A stretch of DNA of 64,000 nucleotides, from the NCBI RefSeq assembly GCF_021389955.1, contig NZ_CP089980.1:5141001-5205000 (forward strand), given 5' to 3'. Below the pieces are notes generated by a model, which worked only from the letters and a program-made list of their open reading frames with translations, was not told the origin of the DNA and ran no database searches. Made by a program: the position numbers and the translations under genes. The DNA comes from Fulvivirga maritima. GTDB taxonomy: Bacteria; Bacteroidota; Bacteroidia; Cytophagales; Cyclobacteriaceae. Below, piece by piece: positions 9,033-42,143 of the stretch; the first letter of the stretch is position 1; every line of letters begins with the position of its first letter.

Positions 9033-10031
9033 ATGTTTAGTGGCAATAAGTTAATTTCAACCAATCAGTTTCTCGCAATTATTATCTTTTTTCTTATTAG
9101 CGGTTGCAAAAAAGAAGACTCTCCTGTTCCATTACCTGTTACTGCCAGTTTTTTAGTAAGCGATTCCATTACAGTTACCAATGATACTATACAGTTTACA
9201 AACAACAGTAGAGGGGCACCACAGCTATTGAAGTGGATTTTCGAGGGAGGCTCACCATCTTCATCTAAAGAAGAAAACCCGAAAGTAACATACACTAAAA
9301 CAGGTAGGTATACAGTAAAATTGGTTGCCACCAGAGGCGAGTTAAGTGATGTAATAATTAAAAAACGTTATATAAATGTTCTTCAACCGCTTAGTGGCAT
9401 GATTGCCCATTACAAAATTGATAATAGCTTTCGAGATGAAACCGGAAATCATGGCTTATTAGTTAACGCAGACTGGTATTATCCTAAGCTCGTCGATAAT
9501 CGGTTTGGCAATCGACACTCTGCCGTTGACTTTAGTAAAAAGTACACAAGTGTCTTTTTCGAAAAATGTGAAGAAATGAATAATCTTGAATCTCTATCTT
9601 TTTCCTGCTGGTTAAAGATTGATTCTCTCATTGATAAATATAGATTTAATAGGCACATAATAAGTTCACAAGTTTATAATGATGATAGACGTCTTTACGA
9701 TAATGGCTTCGTAATAGGCCTTAGCAATACAGGGGTTTACATGTCAATAGGGCATCAGTTTAATTCATTTGGCACCACTTTTATCTTCAATGAATGGGTA
9801 CACTTAGTCTGTACATACCGAAATGAGGGAGCTATAGCCTCTATATACATTAACGGTAATTTGGCTAATTCAAGAGAATTGAGTTACGGTAGTTTGGCTT
9901 TATATTCCACCAACCCAAGGGTTACCATAGGTTATTCCGATAGAAATTTTGATGGTATATTAGATGATTTAAGAATATTTAACCGTGCTATCAATCAGTA
10001 TGAAGTGGATTCATTATATAATTCAAAATAG
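9033..10031 (+). CDS. Lipoprotein with PKD and LamG-like (concanavalin) domains
   Basis: A 332-residue protein with a lipoprotein signal (FLAIIIFFLISGC, lipobox cysteine followed by KKED). Residues about 40-115 form a PKD-type beta domain (FTNNSRGAPQLLKWIFEGG, then TYTKTGRYTVKLVATRG). Residues about 125-330 form a LamG/concanavalin-like jelly roll, with the diagnostic ending GILDDLRIFNRAINQYEVDSLY. Such modules bind glycans on the cell surface. It is a single gene, with a candidate operator at 8901. Domain calls are good; the ligand is unknown. It has no type IX sorting tail, which fits lipid anchoring. Confidence 0.82.
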   Translation: MFSGNKLISTNQFLAIIIFFLISGCKKEDSPVPLPVTASFLVSDSITVTNDTIQFTNNSRGAPQLLKWIFEGGSPSSSKEENPKVTYTKTGRYTVKLVATRGELSDVIIKKRYINVLQPLSGMIAHYKIDNSFRDETGNHGLLVNADWYYPKLVDNRFGNRHSAVDFSKKYTSVFFEKCEEMNNLESLSFSCWLKIDSLIDKYRFNRHIISSQVYNDDRRLYDNGFVIGLSNTGVYMSIGHQFNSFGTTFIFNEWVHLVCTYRNEGAIASIYINGNLANSRELSYGSLALYSTNPRVTIGYSDRNFDGILDDLRIFNRAINQYEVDSLYNSK

Positions 10032-10080
10032 GAGCACCTCACAAAACTTGTGCAGCCGTCTGTAAGGCCTGAACCTATAC

Positions 10081-10239
10081 TCAAACATTAATTATCCAAT
10101 AGAGCCCCCTGAATCCCAATTCTTTACCACCAGCAGCTTTCATTTTCTTAACATTCCTCAAGGCTGTTTTTAAGGATTTACTTATATTCGATCCTGATTG
10201 GTAAATGGATAGTGCAATATTAAAAATGCATTTAATCAT
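10081..10239 (-). CDS. Possible small basic protein (52 residues)
   Basis: A short frame from ATG 10239 to TGA 10081 encodes MIKCIFNIALSIYQSGSNIS followed by a lysine-rich stretch and GFRGLYWIINV. Codon use looks coding-like, and the frame fills the otherwise empty gap between the LamG lipoprotein and hsdM. It could instead be a remnant of a longer gene. No family was recognised. Confidence 0.25.
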   Translation of the reverse strand: MIKCIFNIALSIYQSGSNISKSLKTALRNVKKMKAAGGKELGFRGLYWIINV

Positions 10240-10269
10240 ATACTTGGTGAAAAGGATGAATTGATATTA

Positions 10270-11703
10270 ATGGCTAAGAAAACAAGTAGTAAGAAAGAAC
10301 AGTCCATTGAGGAGTCTCTATGGAACACTGCAAATAAGCTGAGAGGAAAGGTAGAGTCTTCAGAGTACAAACACGTAGTACTCGGACTGATCTTCTTAAA
10401 ATTCGCTTCTGATAAGTTTGAAGGTCGCAGAGAAGAACTCATCCAAGAGGGAAAGGAGAAATACCTGGACATGAAGGAGTTCTACAACATGAAGAACATC
10501 TTCTTTCTGCCTGAAGAAGCCCGCTGGTCATACATCATGCAACATGCTAAGCAGGAAGATATTTCCTTGAAGATAGATACAGCTTTGCACACTGTCGAAA
10601 AGCACAATCCTTCACTGAAAGGAGCACTTCCCGATAACTACTTTTCCCGACTGGGAATGGATGGAAGCAAACTATCTGCTTTGCTCGATACCATCAATAA
10701 CATTGACACCATTGCCGATGAAAAGGAAGATATCGTAGGCCGAGTGTATGAGTTTTTCCTGGGGCGCTTTGCTGCAGTAGAAGGAAAAGGTGGCGGAGAA
10801 TTTTATACGCCTAAATGCGTTGTGAATCTCATTGCTGAAATGTTGGAGCCATTCAGAGGAAAGATCTATGATCCGTGCTGTGGGTCTGGAGGGATGTTTG
10901 TGCAGTCCATCAAGTTTGTGGAGAGCCACAACGGAAACAAAAAAGACATCTCTGTTTATGGACAAGAGTATACAGCTACTACTTATAAGCTAGCCAAAAT
11001 GAACCTTGCCATTCGCGGAATCTCTGCGAATCTGGGAGAAGTACCAGCCGATACCTTTTTCAAAGACCAGCACCCGGATCTCAAGGCTGACTACATTATG
11101 GCCAATCCTCCTTTTAACCAAAGTGAATGGAGAGGCAAGAATGAACTGGTAGATGATCCGCGATGGAAAGGCTATGACGTGCCTCCTGTAGGCAATGCGA
11201 ACTATGCCTGGATCATGCATATGCTCTCAAAGCTATCTGAGAATGGTACAGCAGGCTTTGTGCTGGCCAATGGCTCCATGAGCTCCAATACCAGTGGAGA
11301 AGGAGAACTCAGACGCAGCATGATCGAAAATGACTTGGTAGACTGTATGATTGCCTTACCGGGACAGCTTTTCTACACCACGCAGATACCAGTGTGCCTC
11401 TGGTTCATGACCAAAACTAAAAAAGAAGACAAGGAACATGGCTACCGCAACCGTGAAGGCGAAACGCTATTCATAGATGCTCGGGAAATGGGCACCATGA
11501 TAGACAGGGTGCATAAGGAACTGACGGAAGAAGATCTGGCGAAAATAGCCCAGACTTATCACAGCTGGCGCAATGCTCCTCAAAAGCTCTCCTCCGTGGA
11601 AGGTGAAATACCCGAAGGGAACAACCCTCAAAAGCTCTCCTCCTTGGAAAGTGAAATACCCGAAGGGAACAACCCCCAAAAAGCTCTCCTCCGTGGAAGG
11701 TGA
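10270..11703 (+). CDS. hsdM: Type I restriction-modification DNA methyltransferase subunit HsdM, interrupted near its C-terminus
   Basis: ATG 10270 is preferred over the in-frame TTG at 10261. HsdM is the N6-adenine methyltransferase subunit of type I systems. An N-terminal helical domain (SIEESLWNTANKLRGKVES) is followed by the SAM motif DPCCGSGGMF at about residue 201 and the catalytic NPPF at about 279. The normal sequence runs to AQTYHSWRN near residue 435. After that it turns into repeats PQKLSSVEGEIPEGNN and ends out of frame in the third repeat. The natural C-terminus (EIAANDYVLTPGRYVG...) is found 540 bp further on in another frame, behind a DUF559 gene. The gene is thus split by a repeat/DUF559 insertion. 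Whether the shortened HsdM still works is uncertain. Confidence 0.88.
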   Translation: MAKKTSSKKEQSIEESLWNTANKLRGKVESSEYKHVVLGLIFLKFASDKFEGRREELIQEGKEKYLDMKEFYNMKNIFFLPEEARWSYIMQHAKQEDISLKIDTALHTVEKHNPSLKGALPDNYFSRLGMDGSKLSALLDTINNIDTIADEKEDIVGRVYEFFLGRFAAVEGKGGGEFYTPKCVVNLIAEMLEPFRGKIYDPCCGSGGMFVQSIKFVESHNGNKKDISVYGQEYTATTYKLAKMNLAIRGISANLGEVPADTFFKDQHPDLKADYIMANPPFNQSEWRGKNELVDDPRWKGYDVPPVGNANYAWIMHMLSKLSENGTAGFVLANGSMSSNTSGEGELRRSMIENDLVDCMIALPGQLFYTTQIPVCLWFMTKTKKEDKEHGYRNREGETLFIDAREMGTMIDRVHKELTEEDLAKIAQTYHSWRNAPQKLSSVEGEIPEGNNPQKLSSLESEIPEGNNPQKALLRGR

Positions 11704-11773
11704 AATACCCGAAGGGAGCAACCCTCAAAAGCTCTCCTCCTTGGAAGGAGGAGTACCCGAAGGGGGAGGTGGT
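11581..11773 (+). repeat. Four tandem 48-bp repeats inside hsdM
   Basis: Units start at 11581, 11629, 11677 and 11726. Each begins CAAAAGCTCTCCTCC and continues through CCCGAAGGG. Units 1, 2 and 4 are 48 bp (16 codons), so they keep the reading frame; unit 3 has one extra A (A5 instead of A4), is 49 bp long and shifts the frame. Each unit can fold into small hairpins (CTCCTCCTT..AAGGAGGAG in unit 4; CCC-GAA-GGG in all). Unit 4 is nearly identical to the single copy in hsdS at 13039. Confidence 0.9.
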
Positions 11774-12239
11774 TCTAAACAAACTCCCGAATCGGAAAGT
11801 GGTTACCAAATCAATCACGCCGACCTACAACCACCTCTCCTTGAAAACGAGGGGGAGATAAGAGGAAGTATGAACCTTCCATACCTCAAAACCTTCCGAA
11901 AAAATCTAAGGAATAATAGCACTGCTGCAGAGGCTACTCTTTGGACTATGCTAAGTAAAAAACAACTGGAGGGTCGTAAGTTCAGACGACAGCATAGTGT
12001 GGAAAATTATATTCTGGATTTTTATTGTCCCTCGGAGCGATTGGCTATTGAGCTAGATGGTGAAGTTCACAATGATGTGATTCAGGCTGAATATGACCAT
12101 GAGCGAGACTTGTTTTTAAAGCATGTTGGGATCAAAGTGCTTCGTTTCGAGAACAAGGAAGTTTTTGATCATGCTGAGAATGTTTTGGAAGCGGTCAAAA
12201 AGGAATTTGGTTGGTATAAAACAACCACCCCGGCCTACG
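11581..12239 (+). mobile_element. Repeat-bounded DUF559 insertion in hsdM
   Basis: About 660 bp separates the HsdM sequence ending YHSWRN from its continuation TLKEIAANDY. The insert consists of four 48-bp repeats, a further hairpin (CCTCTCCTTGAAAACGAGGGGGAG at about 11833), a DUF559 gene, and a right end CCACCCCGGCCTACGGCCACCC with a GGCC-TAC-GGCC palindrome. The exact borders and any target duplication cannot be fixed from this copy. Part of the HsdM linker seems to be missing. That it moves is inference from the insertion pattern. Confidence 0.55.
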
Positions 12240-12307
12240 GCCACCCTCAAAGAAATAGCCGCAAACGACTATGTGCTCACTCCTGGGCGCTATGTGGGCA
12301 TGGCTAA
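11870..12307 (+). CDS. DUF559 endonuclease-domain protein
   Basis: ATG 11870 opens MNLPYLKTFRKNLRNNSTAA, the typical start of DUF559 (PF04480) proteins. These are Vsr-like PD-(D/E)xK-fold proteins, and the residues RQHSVENYILDFYCPSERLA, the acidic IELDGEVH and the late VLRFENKEV match the family. The family core ends near residue 122 (VKKEFGWYK). The last 20 or so residues are read from the insertion's right end and from hsdM sequence in the wrong frame. The frame is open upstream through the 48-bp repeats back to 11573. If the single extra A in repeat 3 were absent, the gene would be fused in frame to HsdM. Nuclease activity is assumed from the fold, not shown. Confidence 0.8.
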   Translation: MNLPYLKTFRKNLRNNSTAAEATLWTMLSKKQLEGRKFRRQHSVENYILDFYCPSERLAIELDGEVHNDVIQAEYDHERDLFLKHVGIKVLRFENKEVFDHAENVLEAVKKEFGWYKTTTPAYGHPQRNSRKRLCAHSWALCGHG

Positions 12308-12440
12308 TGTGGAAGATGATGGGGTACCGTTTGAAGAAAAGATGGGAGCACTGACCCAACAATTATATCAGCAAATGAACCAGTCTAAAGCACTGGATCA
12401 GGCGATTAGGGAAAATTTAAAGCTGTTGGGGTATGATTGA
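12240..12440 (+). pseudogene. hsdM: Detached C-terminal segment of HsdM
   Basis: Frame 3 reads ATLKEIAANDYVLTPGRYVG, then MANVEDDGVPFEEKMGAL and RENLKLLGYD, which is the conserved HsdM ending. It is cut off from the main hsdM by the DUF559 insertion, lies in a different frame and has no start codon of its own except an ATG at 12300. Its stop overlaps the hsdS start by 8 bp, the normal hsdM-hsdS junction. Confidence 0.85.
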
Positions 12441-13779
12441 GTTTAGAGAATATGAACTTCAAGATGTTGTTAATATTCTTGATTCAAAACGGAAACCTAT
12501 AAAAAGTAGTGAAAGAGTTTCTGGACCATATCCATACTATGGGGCATCAGGAATAACAGATTATGTTGAAGGTTATTTGTTCGATGGTGATTACTTATTG
12601 TTATCTGAGGATGGTGATAATATAAGAACTCAAAATACACCGATTGCATTTATGGCAAAAGGGAAGTTTTGGGTGAATAATCATGCTCACATACTTGAGG
12701 GAAAAAATGGAAACATCACGCAATACATTTGTTATGCCTTACAAGTTGCTGATATCAATAGTTTTGTGTCTGGATCAACACGGCCTAAGATTACTCAGGG
12801 AGATTTAAAAAGAATAAAAGTTTTACTTCCTGATCCCAGTGCTCAAAGGTCTATAGTGAGAATTCTTGATTCACTAGACGACAAAATAGAACTCAACCGC
12901 CAGATGAATGAGACCTTGGAGGAGATGGCTAAGGCGTTGTTTAAGAGTTGGTTTGTGGACTTTGATCCGGTGATAGACAAAGCACTGGCAGCAGGCCATG
13001 ACATCCCTGAGTCACTACAGCAAAAAGCCGAGAAGCGTAAAAAGCTCTCCTCCTTAGAAGGAGGAGTACCCGAAGGGGGAGGTGGTATTCTGGATTTATT
13101 CCCGGACAGCTTTACCTTCACCGAAGAGCTTGGCTGGATTCCTGAAGGGTGGGAGGTGACAGAAATTCGTGAGCTTGTATCCAAGGTTTCAAAAGGAACA
13201 ACTCCGAGAAAAAACGAGATTATAGATCTTGACGAAGTGATTCCATTCTTAAAAGCTAGAGATATTTCTGATGATGGGACTATATCTTCTGAATTGGATA
13301 TGATTCCAGAAGAAGTTCATTTATCATCTTTAAAAAGGTCAATATTAGAATCTGGAGATTTGCTAATTACTATAGCAGGAACCATAGGTAGAATAGCTCA
13401 ACTTCCTGTTTCTTTAAATAATTCTAACTGCAATCAAGCTATTGCTTTCATAAGGCTAAAAGATAAAAGCCAATACAATAATTTGGTCCTATTCACTTTG
13501 AAATCTGACTTTACATTTAGATTTATTAGTGAGAAAATCGTTCAAGCTGTACAAGCAAATATTAGTTTGGAAACAGTAAATTCAATATTAGTCTGTATTC
13601 CTGAATATCACATTTTAAAACATTGGAATGCCCTTTCTGATCCAATTATGGATCGAATAAGAGCCAACAAAGAGGAAAATTCAGTACTCTCTTCTTTGCG
13701 AGACACCCTTCTTCCAAAACTCATTTCAGGAGAGCTCAGAGTGCCTGAAGCTGCACAAATCATTGCTGATCATGTCTAA
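12433..13779 (+). CDS. hsdS: Type I restriction-modification specificity subunit HsdS
   Basis: A 448-residue protein with two target-recognition domains, each followed by a conserved helix. TRD1 covers about residues 1-135 (PYPYYGASGITDYVEGYLFD) and its spacer helix carries LDDKIELNRQMNETLEEMAK. TRD2 starts at ELGWIPEGWEVTEI (about 233) and ends with the second helix (SSLRDTLLPKLISGELRV). It chooses the DNA sequence for the HsdM/HsdR complex. Between the two halves, residues 203-218 (KKLSSLEGGVPEGGGG) are encoded by one copy of the 48-bp repeat also found in hsdM. The insert is in frame and lies in a linker, so the protein can still be made. The start overlaps the hsdM remnant and the stop overlaps hsdR. 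Confidence 0.9.
   Translation: MIEFREYELQDVVNILDSKRKPIKSSERVSGPYPYYGASGITDYVEGYLFDGDYLLLSEDGDNIRTQNTPIAFMAKGKFWVNNHAHILEGKNGNITQYICYALQVADINSFVSGSTRPKITQGDLKRIKVLLPDPSAQRSIVRILDSLDDKIELNRQMNETLEEMAKALFKSWFVDFDPVIDKALAAGHDIPESLQQKAEKRKKLSSLEGGVPEGGGGILDLFPDSFTFTEELGWIPEGWEVTEIRELVSKVSKGTTPRKNEIIDLDEVIPFLKARDISDDGTISSELDMIPEEVHLSSLKRSILESGDLLITIAGTIGRIAQLPVSLNNSNCNQAIAFIRLKDKSQYNNLVLFTLKSDFTFRFISEKIVQAVQANISLETVNSILVCIPEYHILKHWNALSDPIMDRIRANKEENSVLSSLRDTLLPKLISGELRVPEAAQIIADHV
13039..13086 (+). repeat. Single 48-bp palindromic repeat inserted in frame in hsdS
   Basis: The 48 bases encode 16 residues (KKLSSLEGGVPEGGGG) between the normal HsdS text LQQKAEKR and ILDLFPDSF. The first half is a perfect 9-bp inverted repeat (CTCCTCCTT, 2-nt gap, AAGGAGGAG) and the second half holds CCC-GAA-GGG. 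It differs at only a few positions from repeat unit 4 at 11726 in hsdM. Confidence 0.9.
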
Positions 13780-16700
13780 GTTTAATGAATCATCGCTAGA
13801 GACTACTTTCATCGCCTTGCTGGAAGATCAGGGCATGGAGTTCCTTGCTGGAGCAGCCGTCAGGGCACAATCTGGCGTGCAAGAGCCGGAAGAAAAATAT
13901 GGTCATGCCTTTAGTGCAGAGGTGCTTATCAAGTCAGACCTTACGGATTTCCTACTATCGCAATACAAAGACGAAGGAATCACTTTCGCTGAGGTCACGC
14001 GCATCATTCAGGACCTGGAGCGCTTACCCGCATCAGACCTCTATGATACCAACAAGGCCATAATGAAAAAGGTCTGTGATGGCTTTGTCTTCAAGCGAGA
14101 TGACCACACCCAAAAGGACCTGTTCATTGAGCTGATCGATTACTCAGCAGCAGACAAGAATACCTATAAAGTGGTGAGTCAGTTGGCTATAGATGGCCTG
14201 GAGAAGCGCATACCCGATGTGATCGTTTACATCAATGGGTTGCCGCTGGTGGTGTTTGAGCTAAAGTCCACTTCCAGAGAAGAAGTGAACATCTATCAGG
14301 CATATCGCCAAATCACCAATCGGTATAGAAAAGACATTCCGGAGCTGTTTAAATACAATGCCTTCTGTGTGATCAGTGATGGCATCAATACCAAGGCAGG
14401 TTCCTTTTTTGCTCCTTATGAGTTTTTCTATTCCTGGAGGAAAATCACTGGAGATGAATCAATAGAGAAGGATGGAATAGACGGTACTTACACGCTCATT
14501 CAGGGCATGTTTGATCGCAAGCGGTTGCGAGACATTATCCGAAACTTCATTTTCATCCCTGATAGCAGTAAGAAAGAAGCGAAGATTCTTTGTCGGTATC
14601 CGCAGTATTATGCATCCAGAAAACTCTACGAAAACATCAAGGCACACATGAAGCCGGATGGAGATGGTAAAGGAGGTACTTATTTCGGTGCTACAGGTTG
14701 CGGCAAGAGTTTTACCATGCTATTCCTCACACGCTTACTGATGCGGAGCACTTTCTTTTCCAGCCCTACCATTGTGGTGATTACCGATCGTACTGATCTG
14801 GATGATCAGTTGTCAGAGCAGTTCGAAGGAGCCAAGGGCTACATTGGCGATCAGCTCGTCAAAAGTGTAGGCAGTAGACAGGAACTCAGGGAACTGCTGA
14901 GAGGCAGAAACTCTGGTGGCGTATTCCTTACCACTATTCATAAGTTTACCGAAGATACCGAGCTGCTCACCGAGCGCACCAACGTCATTTGCATTTCCGA
15001 TGAAGCGCACAGAAGCCAAGTCAACCTGGATCAGAAAATTCGGGTAGCAGATGGTCAGGTCAAGCGCAGTTATGGTTTTGCCAAATACCTGCATGACAGC
15101 TTGCCTAATGCCACCTATGTTGGCTTTACAGGAACTCCGGTAGATGCTACACTGGATGTATTTGGTGCAGTGGTAGACTCCTACACCATGAAAGAGTCAG
15201 TGACGGATGAAATCACTGTGAGGATCGTTTATGAGGGTCGGGCCGCCAAGGTGCTGCTGGATCATGATAAGCTACAGGAGATCGAGCGCTATTACAAAGA
15301 AGCCGAGGAGGCTGGAGCTAGTGAATATCAGGTAGAGGAAAGCAAGAAGGCGACCACTCGGATGAATACGATTATTGGAGATCGAGATAGATTGCGAGCC
15401 ATAGCCGAAGATTTCATTCGCCACTACGAAGAGCGTGTTAGTGAAGGCGCATCGGTGAAAGGTAAGGCCATGTTTGTATGCTCAGCCCGTGAGATTGCTT
15501 ATGACCTGTATCAGGAAATTCTGGACATCCGACCAGAATGGGGAGAGGTCAAAGCTTGTGAGGAAGGCGCAGAACTCACTGATAAAGAAAAGAAAGAACT
15601 CAAGCCCATGGCCAAGATCAATATGGTCATGACCAGAGGCCAGGATGATACCAAGGCGCTTTACGATCTATTGGGCAACAAGGAATACAGAAAGGAACTA
15701 GACAGACAGTTTAAAGAACCCAAATCCAATTTTAAAATCGCCATGGTAGTGGATATGTGGCTGACCGGATTTGATGTGCCTTTTCTGGACACCATTTACA
15801 TCGATAAACCCATTCAAAAACATACCTTAATCCAAACCATTTCCAGGGTAAACCGAAAGTTTGAAGGCAAGGACAAAGGGCTTGTAGTAGATTACATTGG
15901 CATCAAAAGACAGATGAACCAAGCCCTTGCGATGTACTCCAAGGAAGAGGAGCGAAGCATAGAGGAAGTGGGCCAATCCATCATTGTGGTAAAAGACATG
16001 CTGGATGTATTATCCAAATACTTCCATAAATTCGATACCTCAGACTTTTTCACTGGAGTACCGAAACAACAATACGATTGCCTCAATAGGGCCTCTGAGT
16101 TTGTGATGCTTACCCAGCAGCAGGAGCGCAGATTTGTAGACCTGGTGAAGCGCCTCAAAGCTTCTTATGATATCTGCTGCGGCAGTGAAGAGTTTACAGA
16201 GGATCATCGTGATCATATACACTTTTACCTCGCAGTGAAATCCATCGTGTTTAAGCTCACGAAAGGTGACGCTCCAGACACGGCTCAGATGAATGCCCGC
16301 GTGCGAGAAATGATACAGGAAGCCATCCGTAGTGATGGTGTGGAGGAGATCTTTAAGCTCGGAGATGACAAGCAAACACAAATCGATCTGTTTGACCCTG
16401 ACTACCTGGATAAGATTGATCGCATCAAGTTACCGAACACAAAAATCAAACTACTCCAGCAGCTGCTGAAGCAAGCCATTGGTGAGCTGAAGAAAACCAA
16501 CAAGACCCGAGGAGTGGACTTCTCTCATAAGTTTGAGCAGCTAGTCAATCAATATAACGAGCGTAAGGAACAAGATACGTTTGAAGGTCGCGTTTACGAT
16601 GAAATGGCTGAAAGTCTCACAGATATGATTCTAGCCATTAAGAAGGCCTACTCAGAAGGCGAAGAGCTAGGCATCTCCTTTGAAGAAAAAGCCTTCTATG

Positions 16701-17260: not shown

Positions 17261-17638
17261 ATGGCTGAACTGAAATATAAAGACATAACAGAGAAGATAA
17301 TTGGTGCCGCTTTTGATGTGCATGGATTCTTGGGTAATGGATTTCAGGAAGTGATTTACCAACGTGCCTTGGCATGGGAAATGACTCAGCGTAAGCTTGA
17401 ATTTGAACGTGAGATCGAACAAGACATATTTTATAAGGACCTGCCTGATCCTGTTGGTACGAGAAGAGCAGACTTTGTGGTAGAAGGAAAAGTTTTGGTA
17501 GAGCTCAAAGCTATTATAGAGCTCCAAGACGTACACCTGGCCCAAGCCTTGAATTATCTCAAAGCTTACAAACTTGAGGTAGGCCTGCTGATCAACTTTG
17601 GTAGTAAGAGTTTAACCTTTAAACGCCTTGTTTCATGA
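17261..17638 (+). CDS. GxxExxY protein
   Basis: A 125-residue protein of the GxxExxY family, named after the motif seen here as GNGFQEVIYQRAL (about residues 25-37). The rest also fits: KDITEKIIGAAFDVHGFLGN at the start, then RRADFVVEGKVLVELKA, a likely PD-(D/E)xK-type core (D, then E-x-K), and a C-terminal VGLLINFGSKSLTFKRLV. These small proteins are common in Bacteroidota as single genes in repeat-rich DNA, and their function is unproven. This copy is intact. A decayed second copy lies 340 bp downstream and shares the same bases across the start codon. Confidence 0.85.
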   Translation: MAELKYKDITEKIIGAAFDVHGFLGNGFQEVIYQRALAWEMTQRKLEFEREIEQDIFYKDLPDPVGTRRADFVVEGKVLVELKAIIELQDVHLAQALNYLKAYKLEVGLLINFGSKSLTFKRLVS

Positions 17639-17693
17639 AACACTCCTTAATCCGTGTAATCTGTAAATCCGTGAGAATCAGTGATTCTGACAA

Positions 17694-17875
17694 TGAAGGA
17701 GGCTTACAATTCGAGAAGGTATTTAACCCGAAGTACAACTCAAATCCTGACATCCTTAAATCCTGAAAATCATTATTCAGACAACTTCGGCTCAAAATCC
17801 CTTCAATTAAAACGGGTACACAATAAAAAAAAATCAAGTAATCAGGTAAATTATAAGAAATCAAGGTTTAGACAA
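17694..17875 (+). repeat. Long repeat (modules x-y) upstream of mcrBC
   Basis: The x module (about 91 bp, containing CTTACAATTC and CCTGACATCCTTAAATCCTG) is followed by the y module (about 91 bp, containing CAAAATCCCTTCAATTAAAA and AGAAATCAAGGTTTAGACAA). The same modules recur as y-x-y-x at 21692-22069 on the other side of the McrBC genes. Confidence 0.85.
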
Positions 17876-17895
17876 TAGAAATAATTAAATTATGC

Positions 17896-18265
17896 AAACG
17901 GATTTTAAATGGCTGAGCAAGTAAGTCTTAACCATGATTGAAAGGATTAAAGGATTACTTGATTAGGTATTTGCAGCATGGAACATCAGGAATTAACTCA
18001 TTAAATAATTGGCGCCTGTATGGAGATTCATAAAGTATTAGGTAATGGATTTCAATAGGTAGTATAAGAACGAACATTCAGTATTGAATTGAACTTGAAC
18101 AATATTTTACAAGAACGAGAATTGGAAATGCCACTAGAATTCAAAGGGCATGATGTTGGGGGCCGTCGGGTAGATTCCTTTATCAAAGAGGTTTTAATTT
18201 TGGAAATCAAAGACATTGAACACCTAGAAGGACTCCATAAGGCACAAGACATCAATTACTGTGAG
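17896..18265 (+). pseudogene. Decayed second GxxExxY gene
   Basis: The 5' bases (AAACGGATTTTAAATGGCTGA) repeat the start of the intact copy, but the frame stops after ten codons at a CTTAACCATGATT repeat. From 17978 the family text returns: IIGACMEIHKVLGNGFQ, stop, VV, stop, ERTFSIEL, then GGRRVDSFIKEVLILEIKDI and HKAQDINY. Three in-frame stops (18002, the codon after GNGFQ, and two codons later) break it. It is clearly non-functional. Confidence 0.8.
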
Positions 18266-18463
18266 TCATATAATTGGGATAATTTATTTCTTGCTTGTCA
18301 ACGGTGTAACGAAAGAGAAAAGCTAGAATTGTTTTCTTTGGCAGCGGGATCTCCCCGAGCTATAAATCATCTTGATAGTATAGGAGATGAAAGACCATCT
18401 ATGGATCCGAAATCACCTTTCTCCAGTATGATTGGTGAGAATGTTAAGAAGGGAATTTTGTAG
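18256..18463 (+). pseudogene. Remnant of an HNH-type endonuclease, joined to the dead GxxExxY gene
   Basis: After HKAQDINY the frame continues CESYNWDNLFLACQRCNERE, then KLELFSLAAGSPRAINHLD and ERPSMDPKSPF. This matches the core of HNH proteins in which a Y-x-W-x-N-L-L-x-C-x-x-C-N segment is followed by FPL, an RA..H stretch and an E-x-P-x-x-x-DP motif. The N-terminal part of the nuclease is missing. The open frame 18089-18463 is therefore a chance join of two remnants. Two C-x-x-C cysteines remain. Confidence 0.5.
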
Positions 18464-18491
18464 AAAAAGTATTGATAGATCACAATAGAAT

Positions 18492-20327
18492 ATGACACCA
18501 AAAGATTTTGCGGAAAAACTCTATACATTCCTAGGGAACTTAATTCATGGTAAAAAAATCGATTCCTGGGAGTATGTTGGCATTGCTAATGTAGCTTTTG
18601 GAACACCGAATGGGGCTTGGGATAAAAGTAAATTTCCTGGATTCCAATTTAGAAAAAGTGAGTTGAGCATTGAGTTTATATTACGAGCTATTCCAGATAC
18701 CGGAAATGGTAGTTGTTATATGGTAGTTGAGTCGATTGATATGGGCGCTCAGCTGGCCAATTTTCATTTGAATAAAAAGCTTAAGTCTAAAAATGGAAAA
18801 AATAGTTTAATTGAGAACTATTCGATGACTGTTGGGCTTGGAGCAAAACCAAAAGCGAAAGTAAAAGAACTTTTTATTAAGCATGGATTTAACTCTGAAG
18901 GTATTATTACTCAATTCGATGAAAACTTAGATTTAGATCTTGTTCTTTCTGATATATTGAAATGGGCGACCATCAGGAGACAAGTTAAAATCGAATTTCA
19001 ACAAGGGGATTCTGATGTGAATGGAAATATGGTTCGTTCTATGATTAATATTGAAAATTCTCATTCTTTAAACCAAATCCTCTATGGCCCTCCCGGAACA
19101 GGAAAAACGTACAAGTTAAGTTCACAATTTTTTCCAAAGTTCACAGAATCTAAACCTGTAGAGACGGAGGTGGAAAAACTGCAAAAAATTGCCGCTAGAT
19201 ATTCATGGTGGCAAATTGTGGCAGCTGTAGTGGTGCAATTAGGTTCTGGAAGAGTTACTGATATTTTAAATGCACCTTTACTTAGAGCCAAGGATGAAAT
19301 AAGCAACCAAAAGAATCCAAGAGCTATGATTTGGGCAATGCTACAGACCCATACTAAAGCCGATTGTAAGCACGTAAAATACTCAAAGCGAGCAGAACCT
19401 TTGTTTTTTTGGAAGAATGATAAGGGAATGTGGTCAATTGATCAAGCTGTAGTTGAAAGTGACTCTCCTGAAATTTTGGATATTCTTAAAGAAGTGAATC
19501 AAGGAACTCAAGAATCTCTGGAAATTAAGAGGTATTCTTTTTGTACGTTTCATCAATCAATGGCCTATGAAGATTTTGTAGAAGGTATAAAGCCTAAACT
19601 AGATGAAAGCGGAGAGATTGGCTATGAGATAAAAGATGGCATTTTCAAGGAAATAGTGGCTAAAGCAATCAAAGATCCAAACCATGATTATGCCCTGTTT
19701 ATTGATGAAATTAATAGAGGCAACGTGTCATCCATTTTTGGTGAGTTAATTACTTTGATAGAGTCAGATAAACGTATAGGTCAACCAAATCACCTTTCGG
19801 TAATACTGCCGTATTCAAGAGAGGAGTTTTCTGTGCCGTCAAACCTTCACATCATTGGCACAATGAATACTGCAGATCGCAGTGTCGAAGCATTGGATGT
19901 GGCATTGAGACGTAGATTTAGTTTTGAGCATATCGTACCACAGTATAGTTTGCCATCACTCATGGAATCATCTGAGGCTCTTGGTGTTTCTGTTTCCAGG
20001 CTCCTCGAAACAATCAATGAACGAATTACATACTTAAAGGATGAAGACCACCAGATAGGTCATAGCTACTTCATAAACGTATTGAGTAAGGAAGAGCTGG
20101 CTGAGACTTTTAATAAGAACATTATCCCACTTCTGAAAGAGTATTTCTACAATGATTATGGAAAGATCAGGTTGATTTTGGGAGAAGAGTTTGTTGAGAA
20201 GGTGGAAAATGCTCCCAAAATGGCGGTTTATGATCAGGATGACTATTTACCAACCATCCGATATAAATTAACAGACCTAACTTCTGACAATATATTAGAA
20301 AAGGTGAAAACGATCATTGGTGACTAG
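18492..20327 (+). CDS. mcrB: McrB-type restriction NTPase with N-terminal recognition domain and inserted winged-helix-like segment
   Basis: A 611-residue protein. Residues about 1-180 form an unrecognised N-terminal domain that probably reads modified DNA. The AAA+ motor has Walker A YGPPGTGKTYK (about 197-206), Walker B ALFIDEINRGNVSS (about 401-414) and the McrB signature GTMNTADRSVEALDVALRRR (about 456-475). Between Walker A and Walker B lies an insertion at about 225-320. It reads YSWWQIVAAVVVQLGSGRVT, then PRAMIWAMLQTHT and FFWKNDKGMWSI, which resembles an HB1/HARE-HTH winged helix. McrB loads on DNA with modified cytosine and drives cleavage by McrC, encoded next door with an 11-bp overlap. 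The gene is intact. Assignment to the family is firm; DNA specificity is unknown. Confidence 0.9.
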   Translation: MTPKDFAEKLYTFLGNLIHGKKIDSWEYVGIANVAFGTPNGAWDKSKFPGFQFRKSELSIEFILRAIPDTGNGSCYMVVESIDMGAQLANFHLNKKLKSKNGKNSLIENYSMTVGLGAKPKAKVKELFIKHGFNSEGIITQFDENLDLDLVLSDILKWATIRRQVKIEFQQGDSDVNGNMVRSMINIENSHSLNQILYGPPGTGKTYKLSSQFFPKFTESKPVETEVEKLQKIAARYSWWQIVAAVVVQLGSGRVTDILNAPLLRAKDEISNQKNPRAMIWAMLQTHTKADCKHVKYSKRAEPLFFWKNDKGMWSIDQAVVESDSPEILDILKEVNQGTQESLEIKRYSFCTFHQSMAYEDFVEGIKPKLDESGEIGYEIKDGIFKEIVAKAIKDPNHDYALFIDEINRGNVSSIFGELITLIESDKRIGQPNHLSVILPYSREEFSVPSNLHIIGTMNTADRSVEALDVALRRRFSFEHIVPQYSLPSLMESSEALGVSVSRLLETINERITYLKDEDHQIGHSYFINVLSKEELAETFNKNIIPLLKEYFYNDYGKIRLILGEEFVEKVENAPKMAVYDQDDYLPTIRYKLTDLTSDNILEKVKTIIGD

Positions 20328-25248: not shown

Positions 25249-26413
25249 TTGCGGTCGAGTCATGCTGCCTGACTTGGAAGAGTTGATGCTTCCCGAGTCA
25301 CTCTGATGCCTGGCAGAGTCGATGCAGCCCGAGTCACTCTGAGGTTCTCGAAAAGTAGACGGTGAAGTACTGATACAAGTGCATTAAGCGACAAACCATT
25401 TACTCCTAATCCAGTAGAAAGTCTCCTTCGAGTGCCTCAGGATGACTTTGGGAATGTATTATTACATTTCCTTTCATTGAACTCCATGGTTATTAGAATG
25501 AACGGGGTATTGAAGAGCCATTGAAGGCTTACAATCCATAATGTAATCACGATTGAGCCATGCTACCCGAGTCACTCTGAGGTTCTCGAAGAGTAGACGG
25601 TAAAGTTCTGATACAATTGCATTAAGAGTCAAACTATTTACTCCTAAGCCAGCAAAAAGTCTCCTTCGAGTGCCTCAGGATGACTTTGGGAATGTATTAT
25701 TCCATTTCCTTTCATAAAACTCCATGATTAATAAAATAAACGATAGCATAACAGAATCATTGAAGGCTTATAATCCACAATATATTTCCGATTGAGCCAG
25801 CGTTCCGAGTCACTCTGAGGTTCTCGAAGAGTAGACGGTAAAGTAGGGAATGTATTATTACATTTTCTTTCATTGAAGTCCATGATTATTAGAATGAACG
25901 GTGGTATAGCAGAGCCATTGATAGTTACTATTGCAATATAATTGAGGTCGAGCCATGCAGTCCTAGTCACTCTGAGGTTCTCGAAGAGTAGACGGTAAAG
26001 TTCTAATACAATTGCATCAAGAGACAAACCATACGCTCCTAAGCAAGCAGAAAGTCTCCTTCGAGTGCCTCAGGATGAATTTGGGAATGTATTATTACAT
26101 TTCCTTACATTAACTCCATGCTTATTAGAATGAATTGTGGTCTAGCAAAGCCATTGAAGGCTTATAATCCACAATGTAATCGCGATTGAGCCAGCGTTCC
26201 GAGTCACTCTGAGGTTCTCGAAGAGTAGACGGTGAAGTTCTGATGCAAGTGAATCAAGAGGCAGACCATACGCTCCTAAGTCAGCAGAAAGTCTCCTTCG
26301 AGTGCCTCAGGATGACTTTTGGGAAGGTATTTCTCGAAAGTACGCGGTAAATAATTAACACATTGATTTTTAAATAATTATATATCAATATCTCAAAAAT
26401 GGTTGAGGCTTGA
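25249..26413. repeat. Tandem array of five 238-bp units built on an inverted repeat
   Basis: Units begin with GAGTCACTCTGAGGTTCTCG or a close variant at 25331, 25569, 25807, 25964 and 26201, so the period is 238, 238, 157 and 237 bp. The third unit has lost about 81 bp. In a full unit the left arm GTCACTCTGAGGTTCTCGAA is followed some 85 bp later by an inverted right arm ending CTTCGAGTGCCTCAGGATGAC. A single degenerate arm pair lies before the first unit (25250-25320). No convincing gene is present; open frames here are by-products of the repeat. The array follows cobC directly. Confidence 0.9.
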
Positions 26414-31532: not shown

Positions 31533-32711
31533 TTATGAAGCTTTATGAACCGTGTTGGCTTTTTTTATTCTTTTAGATGCCTTCTTTATGGCCAAATCTG
31601 CGATATCATAAGCACCATTCATTTTCAGATCCTGTAGGGTTGATCTCATGGCATCAAAATCATAAACACCATTATTGATCCTTTCGGCAATCAATTTACC
31701 TTGTTCGTATTCGCTAAGTTGCATCTCCTTTTCAGATAATGCCCATTGGGTGAATCCCTTCGCATTGGACCAGTTGGCATTATCAATTTCCTGAAGGCCA
31801 ATAGGATAGAGGAGAAGGTAGGCGGTACCCGCACTAGTTACATCTCCGGGTTTGGCAATGCATGCCTTAGCATATTGCCTTACTTCTTCGAAGGCTTCAA
31901 GGGCAGTGCGCTTGTCTTCATGGTAGATGATAGTGTATTTCTCCGTATAGTAAAACGGTTCAGAGACTTCTGTGATTGTTGACTGGGCAATCAGCTTCTG
32001 ATAAAACTCCTGATTGCTATGCGCAAAGACTACCATATTGTCATGCTCAATATGTTCTAATATGGCCAAAAGCAGGATTTGTTGTGCTCCAGCTCCGCCT
32101 AACTTTATTAGTAAGGTGCCGTCATCCTTTTTGTATGACGCGCTTTTGGGATGAGTAATGGTGCCCGTATTGAAAATGTTTGATTTTTTGGGTTTGATGG
32201 TCAACGCTGCTTCCTTACCCTTGGCAATCCTCTTTTTAAGCTTTTTTGATGATACTACGTAGGTAATGGGGCGTTTGCTTTCTTCAAAATAAAGATCGTG
32301 CGCATAGATATCAGGCAGTAATCTTATGATAGGTACCTCTTTAGCAATCTTTGCCACCTTGTCTATGGTAGGATAGGTAGAAATGATACAATCATATTCA
32401 AGCGCCGGTCCTTTAGCATTCAGTTTAGATATGACGTACTCAAACCATCCGGCCAGGTAGGAATTCTTACCGCTTGATATGAATTCGTTGATCTTCTGCA
32501 GCACCCTTGATTTTGAAGACATATTGTAGATACCCTCAAAGAACTTCATCGCCTTTTCTGCACTTGGGCTTAGCGCATGTGATTCATCCACTATCTCAGC
32601 CTCTACACCTCTTTCCTTAAGCGCGGCCTGGATGGCTATGGCCTTCATCCAATGGCCATTTCCCATGGAGCAAGTAGTTATCCCGATCCTCAATTTTTCT
32701 ATCTCTCTCAT
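31533..32711 (-). CDS. GT-B glycosyltransferase-like protein, full-length copy (copy 1 of 4)
   Basis: A 392-residue protein. It opens MREIEKLRIGITTCSMGNGH, followed by WMKAIAIQAALKERG, the N-terminal pattern of GT28/MGDG-synthase-like GT-B enzymes (G-x-GH and AA-x-AL). IISTYPTIDKVAKIAKEVPI ends the first Rossmann domain. In the second domain KPGDVTSAGTAYLLLYPIGL and QEIDNANW correspond to the sugar-nucleotide-binding P-G-G...E...QExxNA region. Donor and acceptor are unknown. Three defective copies lie downstream at 34.9, 36.8 and 41.0 kb on the same strand with almost the same leader. This one has the complete C-terminus and is presumably the parent or functional form. Confidence 0.72.
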   Translation of the reverse strand: MREIEKLRIGITTCSMGNGHWMKAIAIQAALKERGVEAEIVDESHALSPSAEKAMKFFEGIYNMSSKSRVLQKINEFISSGKNSYLAGWFEYVISKLNAKGPALEYDCIISTYPTIDKVAKIAKEVPIIRLLPDIYAHDLYFEESKRPITYVVSSKKLKKRIAKGKEAALTIKPKKSNIFNTGTITHPKSASYKKDDGTLLIKLGGAGAQQILLLAILEHIEHDNMVVFAHSNQEFYQKLIAQSTITEVSEPFYYTEKYTIIYHEDKRTALEAFEEVRQYAKACIAKPGDVTSAGTAYLLLYPIGLQEIDNANWSNAKGFTQWALSEKEMQLSEYEQGKLIAERINNGVYDFDAMRSTLQDLKMNGAYDIADLAIKKASKRIKKANTVHKAS

Positions 32712-33065
32712 CTATAATTTTAACAAGCCGGATTCCATTACCCGGTTTGCGCGGCAATAGTAAGCAAATAGGATTAAGATTGAGTTGTGAGGAAGTTAAG
32801 TTAGTGTGAAGGAATGTGTCCTGATTTTGTGTATTTCAAAATTTATGCCGGTATCAGACTGATAAAATAAAAATATATCAAATTCTTGAAATTTTGCTTT
32901 CATAACAAAAAGTACTTTCATTAACAACAGCGCAGCTGGCTGCCCTATGAAAAATAATTATTCATGTACATAAAATGCCAAACAAATTGATCCACGCTGC
33001 ACTATCAGCTTTGACGTGAAGGCCAAATAGTCAATTTCATCTAATTGCCCGAGAGAACATTTATC
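32712..33065. other. Leader of GT copy 1 and 3' flank of the WG-repeat gene
   Basis: The right-hand 100 bp before copy 1 (32712-32815) is the leader shared by all four copies, with a hairpin (ACCGGG...CCGG) 15-45 bases before the ATG. The remaining part up to 33065 has no gene. An ACAGCGCAGCTGG word at 32929 has a relative at 34513 on the far side of the WG gene. Confidence 0.5.
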
Positions 33066-34882: not shown

Positions 34883-35946
34883 ATGGCATCAAAATCATAA
34901 ACACCATTATTGATCCTTTCTGCAATCAATTTACCTTGTTCGTATTCGCTAAGTTGCATCTCCTTTTCAGATAATGCCCATTGGGTGAACCCCTTCTTAT
35001 TGGACCAGTTGGCATTATCAATCTCCTGAAGGCCAATAGGATAGAGGAGAAGGTAGGCGGTACCCGCACTAGTTACATCTCAGGGTTTGGCGATGCATAC
35101 CTTAGCATATTGCCTTACTTCTTCGAAGGCTTCAAGGGCAGTACGCTTGTCTTCATGGTAGATGATTGTGTGTTTCTCTGTATAGTAAAACGGTTCAGAG
35201 ACTTCTGTGATTGTTGTCTGGGCAAGTAGCTTCTGATAAAATTCCTGATTGCTATGCGCAAAGACTACCATATTGTCATGCTCAATATGTTCTAATATGG
35301 CCAAAAGCAAGGTTTGCTGTGCGCCAGCTCCGCCTAACTTTAATAATAAAGTGCCGTCATCTTGTTTGAATGTCGCACTTTTAGGGTGGGTAATGGTTCC
35401 CGTATTGAAAATATTTGATTTTTTGGGTTTGATGGTCAATGCTGCTTCTTTACCCTTGGCTATTCTCTTTTTAAGCTTTTTTGACGATACCACGTAGGTA
35501 ATAGGCCGCTTGCTTTCTTCAAAATAAAGGTCGTGCGCATAGATATCAGGCAGTAATCTTATGATAGGTACCTCTTTAGCAATCTTTGCCACTTTGTCTA
35601 TGGTAGGATAGGTAGAAATGATGCAATCATATTCAAGCGCCGGTCCTTTAGCATTCAGTTTAGATATGACATACTCAAACCACCCTGCCAGGTAGGAATT
35701 CTTACCGCTTGATATGAATTCGTTGATCTTCTGCAGTAACCTTGATTTTGAAGCCATATTGTAAACACCCTCAAAGAACTTCATCGCCTTTTCGGCACCT
35801 GAGCTTAGCGCCTGTGATTCATCCACTATCTCAGCCTCTACACCTCTTTCTTTCAGCGCGGCCTGGATGGCTATGGCCTTCATCCAATGCCCATTTCCCA
35901 TAGAGCAAGTAGTTATCCCAATCTTCAATTTTTCAATCTCTCTCAT
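34883..35946 (-). pseudogene. GT-B glycosyltransferase-like gene, copy 2 (nonsense and truncated)
   Basis: The sequence is close to copy 1 from ATG 35946 through KVCIAKP, 288 residues. There a GGA glycine codon has become TGA (35080-35082) right before DVTSAGTAYLL. Beyond the stop the homologous frame continues to about 34883 and then ends abruptly, so the last 40 or so residues of the full-length gene are missing as well. The stop removes the sugar-nucleotide part of the second domain, so activity is unlikely. The leader upstream of the ATG is conserved. Confidence 0.8.
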
Positions 35947-36145
35947 CTAAATATTAAACAAACCGGATTGCATCACCAGGTTTGCGCGGCAATAGTAAGC
36001 AAATAGGATTAAGATTGGGTTGTGAGGAGGTTAAGTTAGTGTGAAGGAATGGGTTATATGGGGTTTTATTGTTTTAGCTTTTAAACCGAATGAAAAAATG
36101 GGCATCTGTTTCAACTATGATCAGTGCAGTTACTGCAGACAGCAA

Positions 36146-36622
36146 TTACTTATACCTCATTTGAGTGGCCACTCGTAGCAATGATTCTTTTTTTAAGATA
36201 TATCTTTCAAAATCTTCTGGCATTGTTAAATGTTCATATTCCTCGTCATAAAAATGCAGCTCCAGGCTAAAGATAATAGTCTTAAGCTTGAGTATTTTAA
36301 ATGAAAGTGATGCCTCTAATTCCATAGGAGCAATAATAATTTCAGCCTCTCCATTCAGATATCGCATCCAGCTACTTGTATAGTTCAAGTGATCTATTTC
36401 GCTAACATTATATAGCTTAAAGCCCGTAATAAAATCGGTTAAACTATCATACTCAGTGGCTATACTAACCTCATATGGCCCCTGATCATAACTTTGGTGC
36501 ATTAGAAAAGTCCAAATACCCGTTTCTTCTGACCATCCGATCTGCATACCAGACAAGTTGGTAAAACGATTATTTTTATCATTGAGGAATTCTCTTAACT
36601 CCAGCTCAGAGATGTAGTTCAT
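36146..36622 (-). CDS. Unknown protein of 158 residues
   Basis: ATG 36622 opens MNYISELELREFLNDKNNRF. The protein has no signal peptide or membrane segment and an alternating hydrophobic pattern (SGMQIGWSEETGIWTFLMHQ, LEASLSFKILKLKTIIFSLE), suggesting a small alpha/beta fold. It lies between GT copies 2 and 3 like a passenger gene. I recognise no family. Composition is like that of its neighbours, and the frame is well separated from other genes, so it is likely real. Confidence 0.6.
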   Translation of the reverse strand: MNYISELELREFLNDKNNRFTNLSGMQIGWSEETGIWTFLMHQSYDQGPYEVSIATEYDSLTDFITGFKLYNVSEIDHLNYTSSWMRYLNGEAEIIIAPMELEASLSFKILKLKTIIFSLELHFYDEEYEHLTMPEDFERYILKKESLLRVATQMRYK

Positions 36623-36780
36623 ACCGGATATAACATTGATTTCAACACAAAATTAAGTATCCTGCATGACTATTTAATATAATTTGACAAATGCTCTTTT
36701 AGCAATGCAAAAAGTATTTGCCCGCTCGGCACGAGGGCATTGCGAACACCAATAAAAAATAGACGCCCCGTCAGCTATCT

Positions 36781-37051
36781 CAAACCATCCGGCCAGGTAC
36801 GAGTTCTTACCGCTAGATATGAATTCGTTGATCTTCTGCAGCACCCTTGATTTTGAAGCCATATTGTAGATACCCTCAAAGAACTTCATCGCCTTTTCCG
36901 CACCTGGACTTAGTGCCTGTGATTCATCCACTATCTCAGCATCTACACCTCTTTCCTTCAGCGCGGCCCGGATGGCTATGGCCTTCATCCAATGGCCGTT
37001 TCCCATGGAGCAAGTAGTTATCCCGATCCTCAATTTTTCAATCTCTCTCAT
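36781..37051 (-). pseudogene. GT-B glycosyltransferase-like gene, copy 3 (N-terminal fragment)
   Basis: From ATG 37051 about 90 residues match copy 1 (MREIEKLRIGITTCSMGNGH to SYLAGWFE). At 36781 the match breaks off and the frame runs on into unrelated sequence to 36674 (IADGASIFYW...). Only the first part of the first Rossmann domain remains. It differs from copy 1 at a few residues (RAALKERGVDAE). The leader upstream is conserved and has the best version of the hairpin. Confidence 0.8.
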
Positions 37052-37388
37052 CTAAATTTTGAGCAAACCGGACTGCCTTACCCGGTTTGCGCGGCAATAG
37101 TAATAAAATAGGATTAAGATTGGGTTGTGAGGAGGTTAAGTTAGTGTGAAGGAATGGGTTGTTGGGGGTAATACTTTGTTTCTGGTTTCAGATAGACAGA
37201 TCAAGAGGTTATTAGATTCTATCCGTTCTTGGAAGAGCTACTGTTACAGCAAGAGGTCGATTATACTTCCAGCAACAGTATGAGTTTAGGGTGGCTTTGT
37301 GTAGGTATTTCAATAGTAAAATGCCTAAGGTTGGGTATTGTGGATGACACATTTTAAATGAAAATTGAAAATAAAATTTATCAATACA
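37052..37388. other. Leader of GT copy 3 and promoter region of the 37389 gene
   Basis: 37052-37155 is the shared GT leader (minus strand), containing a perfect 9-bp stem GCAAACCGG / CCGGTTTGC around an 11-nt loop (37066-37093). Then unique AT-rich DNA follows, with the candidate operator at 37320. No gene is seen. Confidence 0.55.
37320..37340 (+). promoter_or_regulatory. Candidate operator, near-palindrome ATGCCTAA-GG-TTGGGTAT, copy 2
   Basis: Identical over 21 bases to 8901-8921 and 48 bp before the ATG at 37389. A perfect-half variant stands in front of the next gene (38316). Confidence 0.45.
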
Positions 37389-41026: not shown

Positions 41027-41036
41027 AAGAGCTCAA

Positions 41037-42143
41037 TATCGTAGGCACCATTCATTTTCAGATCCTTAAGGGTTGATCTCATAGCATCAAAATCATAAAC
41101 ACCATTATTGATCCTTGGGCAATCAATTTACCTTGCTCGTATTCGCTAAGTTGCATCTCCTTTTCAGATAATGCCCATTGGGTGAATCCCTTCGTATTGG
41201 ACCAGTTGGCATTATCAATTTCCTGAAGGCCAATAGGATAGAGGAGAAGGTAGGCGGTACCCGCACTAGTTACATCTCCGGGTTTTGCAATGCATGCCTT
41301 AGCATATTGCCTTACTTCTTCAAAAGCTTCAAGGGCAGTACGTTTGTCTTCATGGTAGATAATTGTGTATTTGTCTGTATAGTAAAACGGTTCGGAGACT
41401 ACTGTAATATTTGTCTGGGCAATCAGCTTCTCGTAAAATTCCTGATTGCTATGCGCAAAGACTACCATATTATCATGCTCAATATGTTCTAATATGGCCA
41501 ATAGCAAGGCTTGTTGCGCACCCGCGCCACCTAATTTTAATAGCAAGGTGCCGTCATCTTCTTTATATATCGCGCTTTTGGGATGAGTAATGGTGCCAGT
41601 ATTGAAAATGTTTGATTTTTTGGGTTTGATGGTCAACGCTGCTTCCTTACCCTTGGCTATCCTCTTTTTAAGCTTTTTTGATGATACCACGTAGGTAATG
41701 GGGCGTTTGCTTTCTTCAAAATAAAGATCGTGCGCATAGATATCAGGCAGTAATCTTATGATAGGTACATCTTTGGCAATCTTTGCCACCTTGTCTATGG
41801 TAGGATAGGTAGAAATGATGCAATCATATTCAAGCGCCGGTCCTTTAGCATTCAGTTTAGATATCACGTACTCAAACCATCCGGCCAGGTAGGAATTCTT
41901 ACCGCTAGATATGAATTCGTTGATCTTCTGCAGCACCCTTGATTTTGAAGCCATATTGTAGATACCCTCAAAGAACTTCATCGCCTTTTCGGCACCTGGG
42001 CTTAGCGCCTGTGATTCATCCACTATCTCAGCCTCTACACCTCTTTCTTTGAGCGCGGCCTGAATGGCTATGGCCTTCATCCAATGTCCATTTCCCATGG
42101 AGCAAGTAGTTATCCCGATCTTCAGTTTTTCTGTCTCTCTCAT
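41037..42143 (-). CDS. GT-B glycosyltransferase-like gene, copy 4 (frameshifted C-terminus)
   Basis: ATG 42143 (MRETEKLKIGITTCSMGNGH) aligns with copy 1; the upstream in-frame ATG at 42170 is in the leader. The match is full through KPGDVTSAGTAYLLLYP and LSEYEQGKLIA. There one base is missing relative to copy 1 and the frame ends QGSIMVFMILML at 41079. The homologous bases continue to 41037 and stop 10 bp after the hydrolase-pair operon, so the last 30 or so codons are lost. Both GT domains are otherwise intact, so the protein of about 354 residues may still fold. Confidence 0.72.

Follow-up and report, generated by a model that had tools for sequence, protein, structure and literature searches.

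Homing endonucleases of the EDxHD type are carried by phage introns and possess extended regions for DNA binding, and their active-site plan is common to the PD-(D/E)xK homing enzymes, according to the accessible part of the report describing them (PMC3943268). Rickettsia palindromic elements (RPEs) are palindromic inserts of about 150 bp that lie in frame in unrelated genes; as far as the available text goes, they encode a conserved peptide and contain no nuclease gene (PMC10969869). RAYTs are described as tyrosine transposases in the available portions of two reports (PMC3116915; PMC3733652). Excerpts of two further reports state that YcjD detects Vsr by profile (PMC1189080), and that, in Caulobacter, the response of a methylase mutant to DNA damage depends on VsrA, which has a DUF559 domain (PMC12907096). 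The latter suggests that DUF559 proteins act on DNA in cells.

In this study, we analyzed a 64,000-nucleotide stretch of the Fulvivirga maritima genome (hereafter the window, which spans 5141001-5205000 of contig G000:C1, with positions counted from its first base), in which an array of 48-bp repeats and a DUF559 gene break up hsdM. A first-pass annotation had reported this break and had suggested a small mobile element in which DUF559 spreads the repeats as RAYTs spread REPs. We found that the feature is probably a palindrome-ended, non-splicing, in-frame element of the homing type, that is, a DUF559 nuclease gene between GC-rich hairpin end repeats, which has decayed at this locus.

Structure of the interrupted hsdM locus

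The part of hsdM before the insert (10270-11574, forward strand) contains the Pfam domains HsdM_N and N6_Mtase. This text is genuine HsdM (328 bits to N6_Mtase), and its DNA is 92.5% identical (1207/1305) to that of the Fulvivirga sediminis locus L004. The left repeat array follows on the same strand at 11578-11764. It comprises 3.9 copies of 48 bp with 90% matches, that is, four units of 48/49 bp with start-to-start spacings of 48 and 49, and it contains GC-rich hairpins and one frame break. The 17-mer core of the repeat, CCCGAAGGGGGAGGTGG, had two window matches at up to three mismatches, against 0.02 expected from shuffles. Hairpins had been claimed for these repeats, and the last unit can indeed be folded into a possible 8-bp stem that pairs a GGAGGAG side with CTCCTCC (z -2.2 over a 136-nt stretch). 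An inverted pair of 15-nt arms, 87% complementary and 48 nt apart, has one arm where the array ends towards DUF559 (11763-11777, forward) and the other just before DUF559 (11826-11840, reverse).

The DUF559 domain, a predicted nuclease domain of the PD-(D/E)XK or Vsr-like kind, spans 11870-12220 on the forward strand. It was detected by Pfam at 114 bits (E 3e-33), and 347 of 348 bases were the same as in L004. The only Pfam matches of this ORF were DUF559 and MTES_1575; no Y1_Tnp/HUH transposase domain was found in it by Pfam. To its right, a remnant including the sequence GGCC-TAC-GGCC (12225-12246, forward) precedes the hsdM ending, which picks up again at about 12247 and extends to 12440 on the forward strand with 89% identity to L004. 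HsdM start, DUF559 gene and HsdM ending each have a frame of their own, and hsdM is therefore broken in the window. One frame break lies inside the array and the other to the right of DUF559.

The genome-wide distribution of the repeat was determined with its 39-base core. At up to three mismatches, the core was confined to two places in the genome of 6.39 Mb, the hsdM array and a solo copy in hsdS. The solo copy (KLSSLEGGVPEGGGG; 13041-13087, forward) lies in frame within hsdS and has one mismatch to the last unit of the array over the 39-base core. DUF559 itself had one match in this genome. High-copy dispersal of the repeat in the genome of the window was therefore rejected, since two places were all that was found.

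Several other features of this genome were observed. The hsdS gene of L004 has no solo repeat, and the rest of it is only 55% identical to the window hsdS. The type I system is followed at 17261-20327 by genes for a PDDEXK_3 nuclease and a McrB-like AAA_5 protein (Pfam), which possibly form a defence island. Two adjacent tandem arrays with units of about 237-238 bp, two copies each, are located at 25328-26331. Y1_Tnp genes with identical scores are found far from DUF559 at 1909707, 1935868, 3642113 and 5383703 of the contig (G000:C1), and they probably represent an active IS200-type element.

An intact copy in Fulvivirga sediminis and the state of the HsdM site in relatives

The closest relative of the window gene, at 97% identity, was found in F. 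sediminis. In this species (L004), HsdM, repeats, DUF559, repeats and HsdM are read through as a single open frame of 747 aa. Compared with L004, whose left array is about half as long, the window array is 100 bp longer, and 170 bp are gone to the right of DUF559, the right-hand repeats included. The window copy is therefore regarded as decayed. The first-pass annotation had placed the resumption of HsdM at TLKEIAANDY. The natural point in L004 is earlier, at YKDIPGYC, where the window lacks the 170 bp, and in this alignment the GGCC-TAC-GGCC palindrome is what remains of the right end of the element.

The HsdM site could be read by pattern in 9 of 16 loci, of which five were empty, three had a longer loop and one was the window. 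The loop was empty in L206, from the same genus, and in L208, L209, L210 and L217. It was longer in L207, L218 and L220, and repeat-like only in L218, which has a short Ser/Gly-rich insert. In another genome of the genus (G010, L113), an in-frame DUF559 was present at the same HsdM loop. With five empty sites among relatives, the layout is not fixed; its fixation across distant taxa would have spoken against the first-pass suggestion.

Synonymous differences between the window and L004 were 1/71 in DUF559 and 107/309 in hsdM (p 1e-10). However, blocks without DUF559 around the window hsdM are likewise 98-100% identical to F. sediminis, so that recombination alone could yield a young-looking DUF559 patch. 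Separately, a stretch of F. sediminis (L232, about 11617-13971) matched the window at 31560-32816, 34883-37168 and 41036-42245 with 91-95% identity, as a multi-copy family.

In-frame DUF559 inserts in host proteins

DUF559 was present in 35 of 58 relatives and in 171 of 296 Bacteroidota genomes, the best match being weak (E above 1e-15) in 45 of the 171. Among the best 150 matches listed in the Bacteroidota survey, ordered by E-value, 43 had an open frame of at least 290 aa around DUF559. Host families were assigned with NCBIfam for 46 of 52 proteins, that is, all except L111-L116, of which L111 and L113 were examined with Pfam. Of the 46 long-frame proteins, 28 scored above a curated host-family cut-off, and these fell into nine families: LeuRS (8), HsdR (6), MetH (4), HemF (3), IcmF (2), RecG (2), HisF (1), RNase HI (1) and QueG (1). 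The other 18 included HsdM, RecB-like helicases and DNA methylases below the cut-off, together with some proteins without an assigned identity. LeuRS had two DUF559 insertion sites. The HemF, HisF, RNase HI, QueG and TetR-like cases are putative terminal fusions, as judged by the open frame. One LeuRS (L090) also contained a second repeat-like stretch (SISSPSGGGREGAS) without DUF559.

The fused inserts were joined to their hosts by Gly/Pro/Ser-rich linkers. No intein domain was detected in seven fusion proteins (Pfam, E 0.01), and no known intron RNA was matched by Rfam in five loci and in window positions 10000-14000. An intron or intein carrier was rejected on these grounds, and nothing appears to be spliced out of the product. 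As judged from the translations, the intact copies keep one reading frame throughout, which would give the hosts, some of them usually essential (LeuRS), an extra translated domain. This in-frame position is the most striking feature of the insert.

The DUF559 nuclease

Alignment of 18 diverse DUF559 sequences revealed invariant residues that include E18, W22, Q38, D47, E58, D60, H64, D73 and R76. All five of D47, E58, D60, H64 and D73 were present in each of 56 in-frame copies and in 55 of 58 standalone copies, so that the active-site residues are, by sequence comparison, preserved. The dN/dS ratios among recG inserts were mostly 0.06-0.25, and the recG inserts are thus judged to be under purifying selection. 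Against the PDB, the DUF559 profile matched 3hrl, an 'Endonuclease-Like Protein' (E 4e-35), and 3r3p, the solved structure of a 'Mobile intron protein' nuclease (E 2.5e-6), which we take to be I-Bth0305I. Further matches of the profile, at E 3.7e-6 and 0.003, were to families of phage homing endonucleases. PADLOC gave weak matches only. By these matches, the window DUF559 ORF is a nuclease of the PD-(D/E)XK type. A structure model was set aside, as its mean pLDDT was 47 and it was built from three sequences.

Palindromes flanking DUF559 genes

We then compared the flanks of DUF559 genes with those of control ORFs, mostly resident genes. A strict hairpin was defined as a perfect stem of at least 8 with at least half GC. 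The loci were top-scoring matches, in-frame ones having been chosen deliberately, and 96 of 100 had enough flank. GC-rich hairpins were found on both sides at 37 of the 96 DUF559 loci compared with 1 of 442 control ORFs, and on either side at 56 of 96 compared with 37 of 442; the remaining 40 DUF559 loci had no flanking hairpin by this test. Hairpin density peaked within 200 bp of DUF559. At 50-100 bp out, it was 6.5 per kb for in-frame and 4.0 for standalone copies, compared with 0.03-0.3 beyond 300 bp. The similarity of left and right flanks exceeded the 95th percentile of mismatched pairs at 57 of 96 loci in inverted orientation and at 45 of 96 in direct orientation. In the recG insert of G380, for example, the left end is AGCCTCCCCTAACCCCTCC, of which the right end is nearly an inverted copy. 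Inserts with DUF559 measured 447-450 bp, and solo repeats, as in the window hsdS and in the recG of L134, measured 42-48 bp. Neither a target duplication nor a clean insertion border was definable in the recG inserts examined. The end repeats of the element are shown by these sequence comparisons.

Other phyla were sampled through 10 of 43 plasmid-collection records with DUF559. By the strict test, three loci had hairpins on both sides (L222, L224, L229) and four on one side (L223, L226, L227, L228). These seven came from Deinococcus, two Azospirillum, Sphingomonas, Photobacterium, Synechocystis and Sinorhizobium. L221, L225 and L230 were negative in the strict test, and imperfect GC-rich palindromes were seen in them by eye. 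In Sphingomonas parapaucimobilis (L224), the palindrome-flanked DUF559 gene lies between sufB and sufC. In one E. coli record, 2 of 15 palindrome matches lay 13 and 233 bp beyond ycjD, which presumably encodes the E. coli DUF559 protein, where 0.0025 were expected by chance. Because the reversed control pattern gave 12 matches against these 15, only the position beside ycjD was used. Repeats therefore do occur near DUF559 elsewhere, and their confinement to this one locus, which would have spoken against a mobile unit, was not observed.

These associations bear on the proposal that the DUF559 enzyme disperses REP/REPIN-like palindromes genome-wide in the manner of a RAYT, the palindromes being the mobile entity. 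The adjacency of palindromes and DUF559 in Bacteroidota and other phyla, the two E. coli copies less than 250 bp beyond ycjD, and the solo copies in the window hsdS and in recG (L134) would agree with it. A degenerate palindrome pattern, which had no match in the genome of the window itself, exceeded its own control by at least 3 in 24 of 296 Bacteroidota genomes, and a strong DUF559 match was found in 20 of these 24 compared with 106 of the 272 others (Fisher p 4e-5, kinship ignored). However, G079, G087, G142 and G160 are rich in repeats and have no DUF559 match, the E. coli pattern was hardly more frequent than its reversed control, the genome of the window has two repeat places only, and DUF559 is a PD-(D/E)XK-type nuclease without a HUH/tyrosine transposase domain. 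We therefore consider dispersal by DUF559 unlikely. The analogy with REPs holds in that DUF559 and palindromes are associated well beyond this genome and the unit lies inside genes; RAYT-style spreading of the repeats is not supported. Homing to cognate sites accounts better for the overall pattern than the scattering of numerous small repeats would. Among the repeat-rich genomes, G079 had 23 matches to the pattern and G142 had 17.

Presence and divergence of the insert at the recG site

The recG site was examined in genus g52 (Flavobacteriaceae level), where RecG was recovered from 146 of 150 genomes. The frame was 844-869 aa long in 7 of the 146, frame length being uninformative for some twelve genes that are truncated where a contig ends. 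Fifty-three RecG sequences were read, of which 10 had DUF559, 2 had a short insert and 41 were empty. The insertion point was constant, between RSKLW and PPHVLVMTATPIP. Repeat-only alleles were considered as the cause of frames of 721-788 aa. Of 20 loci taken for this check, 18 had been picked for such frames, and all 18 were empty at the site; the length differences therefore lie elsewhere in the gene. On the RecG tree, the presence of DUF559 required 7 changes, at least 4 of them forced by well-supported branches. As 7 or fewer changes were reached in 10 of 500 shuffles, presence is partly clustered. By sequence comparison, the insert has been gained or lost repeatedly at this one site.

The insert was less diverged than the recG flanks in 36 of 45 pairs and not in 9 of 45. 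In the trio G140/G343/G407, synonymous difference was 0.02 in the insert versus 0.20-0.29 in the flanks, and identity between G140 and G343 was highest over the insert. The corresponding values were 0.43 versus 0.71 for G437/G380, and they were clearly reversed for G252/G159 (0.74 versus 0.57). In some close pairs, the synonymous divergence was 0.01-0.02 in the insert versus 0.20-0.39 in the host gene. In window/L004, the recG trio and G437/G380, the comparison indicates that the insert is younger than the gene that carries it.

In a tree of DUF559, which had 110 columns and few resolved forks, RecG and HemF inserts each formed one clade, MetH inserts nearly one and HsdR inserts two. One clade (support 95) combined two inserts from HsdM with two from other methylases. 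LeuRS was kept out of the site clustering, since all LeuRS rows were under one label despite two insertion sites. Host clades with one mixed HsdM/methylase clade are what would be expected if jumps to new genes are rare. Clustering by host site is seen in these comparisons, and it can also stem from vertical descent with loss.

Under ordinary domain accretion, DUF559 would be an accessory nuclease domain, of use to restriction or repair proteins, that is inherited with its host. The grouping of the tree by host, the purifying selection on recG inserts and the many hosts that are restriction-modification proteins (HsdM, HsdR, methylases) are all compatible with this. We nevertheless regard it as improbable, given the sporadic presence at recG, the inserts younger than their host genes in several pairs and the palindromes at the ends. 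In addition, we know of no use of DUF559 for LeuRS, MetH, IcmF, HemF or RecG.

Discussion

Two further explanations were weighed against a homing-type element. The palindromes might be common terminator- or REP-like clutter around any acquired gene, with a non-functional link to DUF559. Some genomes do have many such palindromes, and the distribution of DUF559 is patchy, but the excess of two-sided hairpins over controls (mostly resident genes, as noted) and the position of palindromes inside the reading frames of core genes make this very improbable. Least probable of all is that the palindromes are REPs moved by a separate Y1_Tnp (RAYT-type) transposase of the same genomes with DUF559 as a passenger: Y1_Tnp occurs in 10 of 12 genomes examined, with ten matches in the genome of the window, but not in G140 or G049, both of which have in-frame DUF559 with palindromes, the nearest of the listed matches is about 230 kb from the window DUF559, and the palindrome-free flanks of other genes would be left unexplained.

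For the homing-type element, we infer the following order of events. A DUF559 protein, made either as a host fusion or from an internal start, would cleave the cognate site of the same gene in a related cell where this site is unoccupied. Repair off the occupied copy would then install the element, with little flank carried along. Rare transfers to a new gene may occur, perhaps via shared palindromes, and solo palindromes would be left after internal loss. The small mobile element of the first-pass annotation is retained here as a palindrome-ended unit inside genes, with the homing-type reading preferred to a repeat-dispersing mode.

More tentatively, DUF559 and its palindromes might constitute an undescribed class of mobile element across bacterial phyla, in which a homing nuclease gene without an intron or intein forms a wholly translatable in-frame insert. 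Such a class may also be the source from which the scattered palindromes of the CCCTCACCC type in bacterial genomes derive, including the ones next to E. coli ycjD. The available parts of the open-licence literature on DUF559 and ycjD hold no description of such an element. If the proposal is true, it would explain why DUF559, a nuclease family of unknown function, is found inside tRNA synthetases, methionine synthase and helicases, it would give an origin to a widespread palindrome type, and it would mean that a selfish gene can inhabit essential genes without splicing.

Among known systems, Vsr and YcjD/VsrA are related to the element by the DUF559 domain or profile; flanking palindromes or insertion into host genes are not mentioned in the available parts of the reports (PMC1189080, PMC12907096). 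Similar to REP/REPIN-RAYT systems, the element has hairpin repeats, often inverted, next to the gene of a DNA-processing enzyme. Unlike them, it has a PD-(D/E)XK-type nuclease in place of a HUH tyrosine transposase beside the repeats, and its repeats are few in the genome of the window, at two places and not many. As in RPEs, palindromic inserts lie in frame in unrelated genes, whereas the DUF559 inserts are about 450 bp long with a nuclease gene, or solo repeats of 42-48 bp. Homing inteins also place a nuclease in frame into conserved proteins, but the DUF559 insert consists of DUF559 and short linkers only, with no Hint/splicing domain in the seven fusion proteins. Compared with EDxHD homing endonucleases of the I-Bth0305I type, the DUF559 element has no intron and no further Pfam domain in its ORF, and its in-frame copies are neither intron- or intein-borne nor free-standing but are translated within the host. 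Like these enzymes, however, it is site-specific and sporadically present, its nuclease domain is related by profile to theirs (3r3p, E 2.5e-6) and to phage homing families, and one cognate site, in recG, is polymorphic among relatives.
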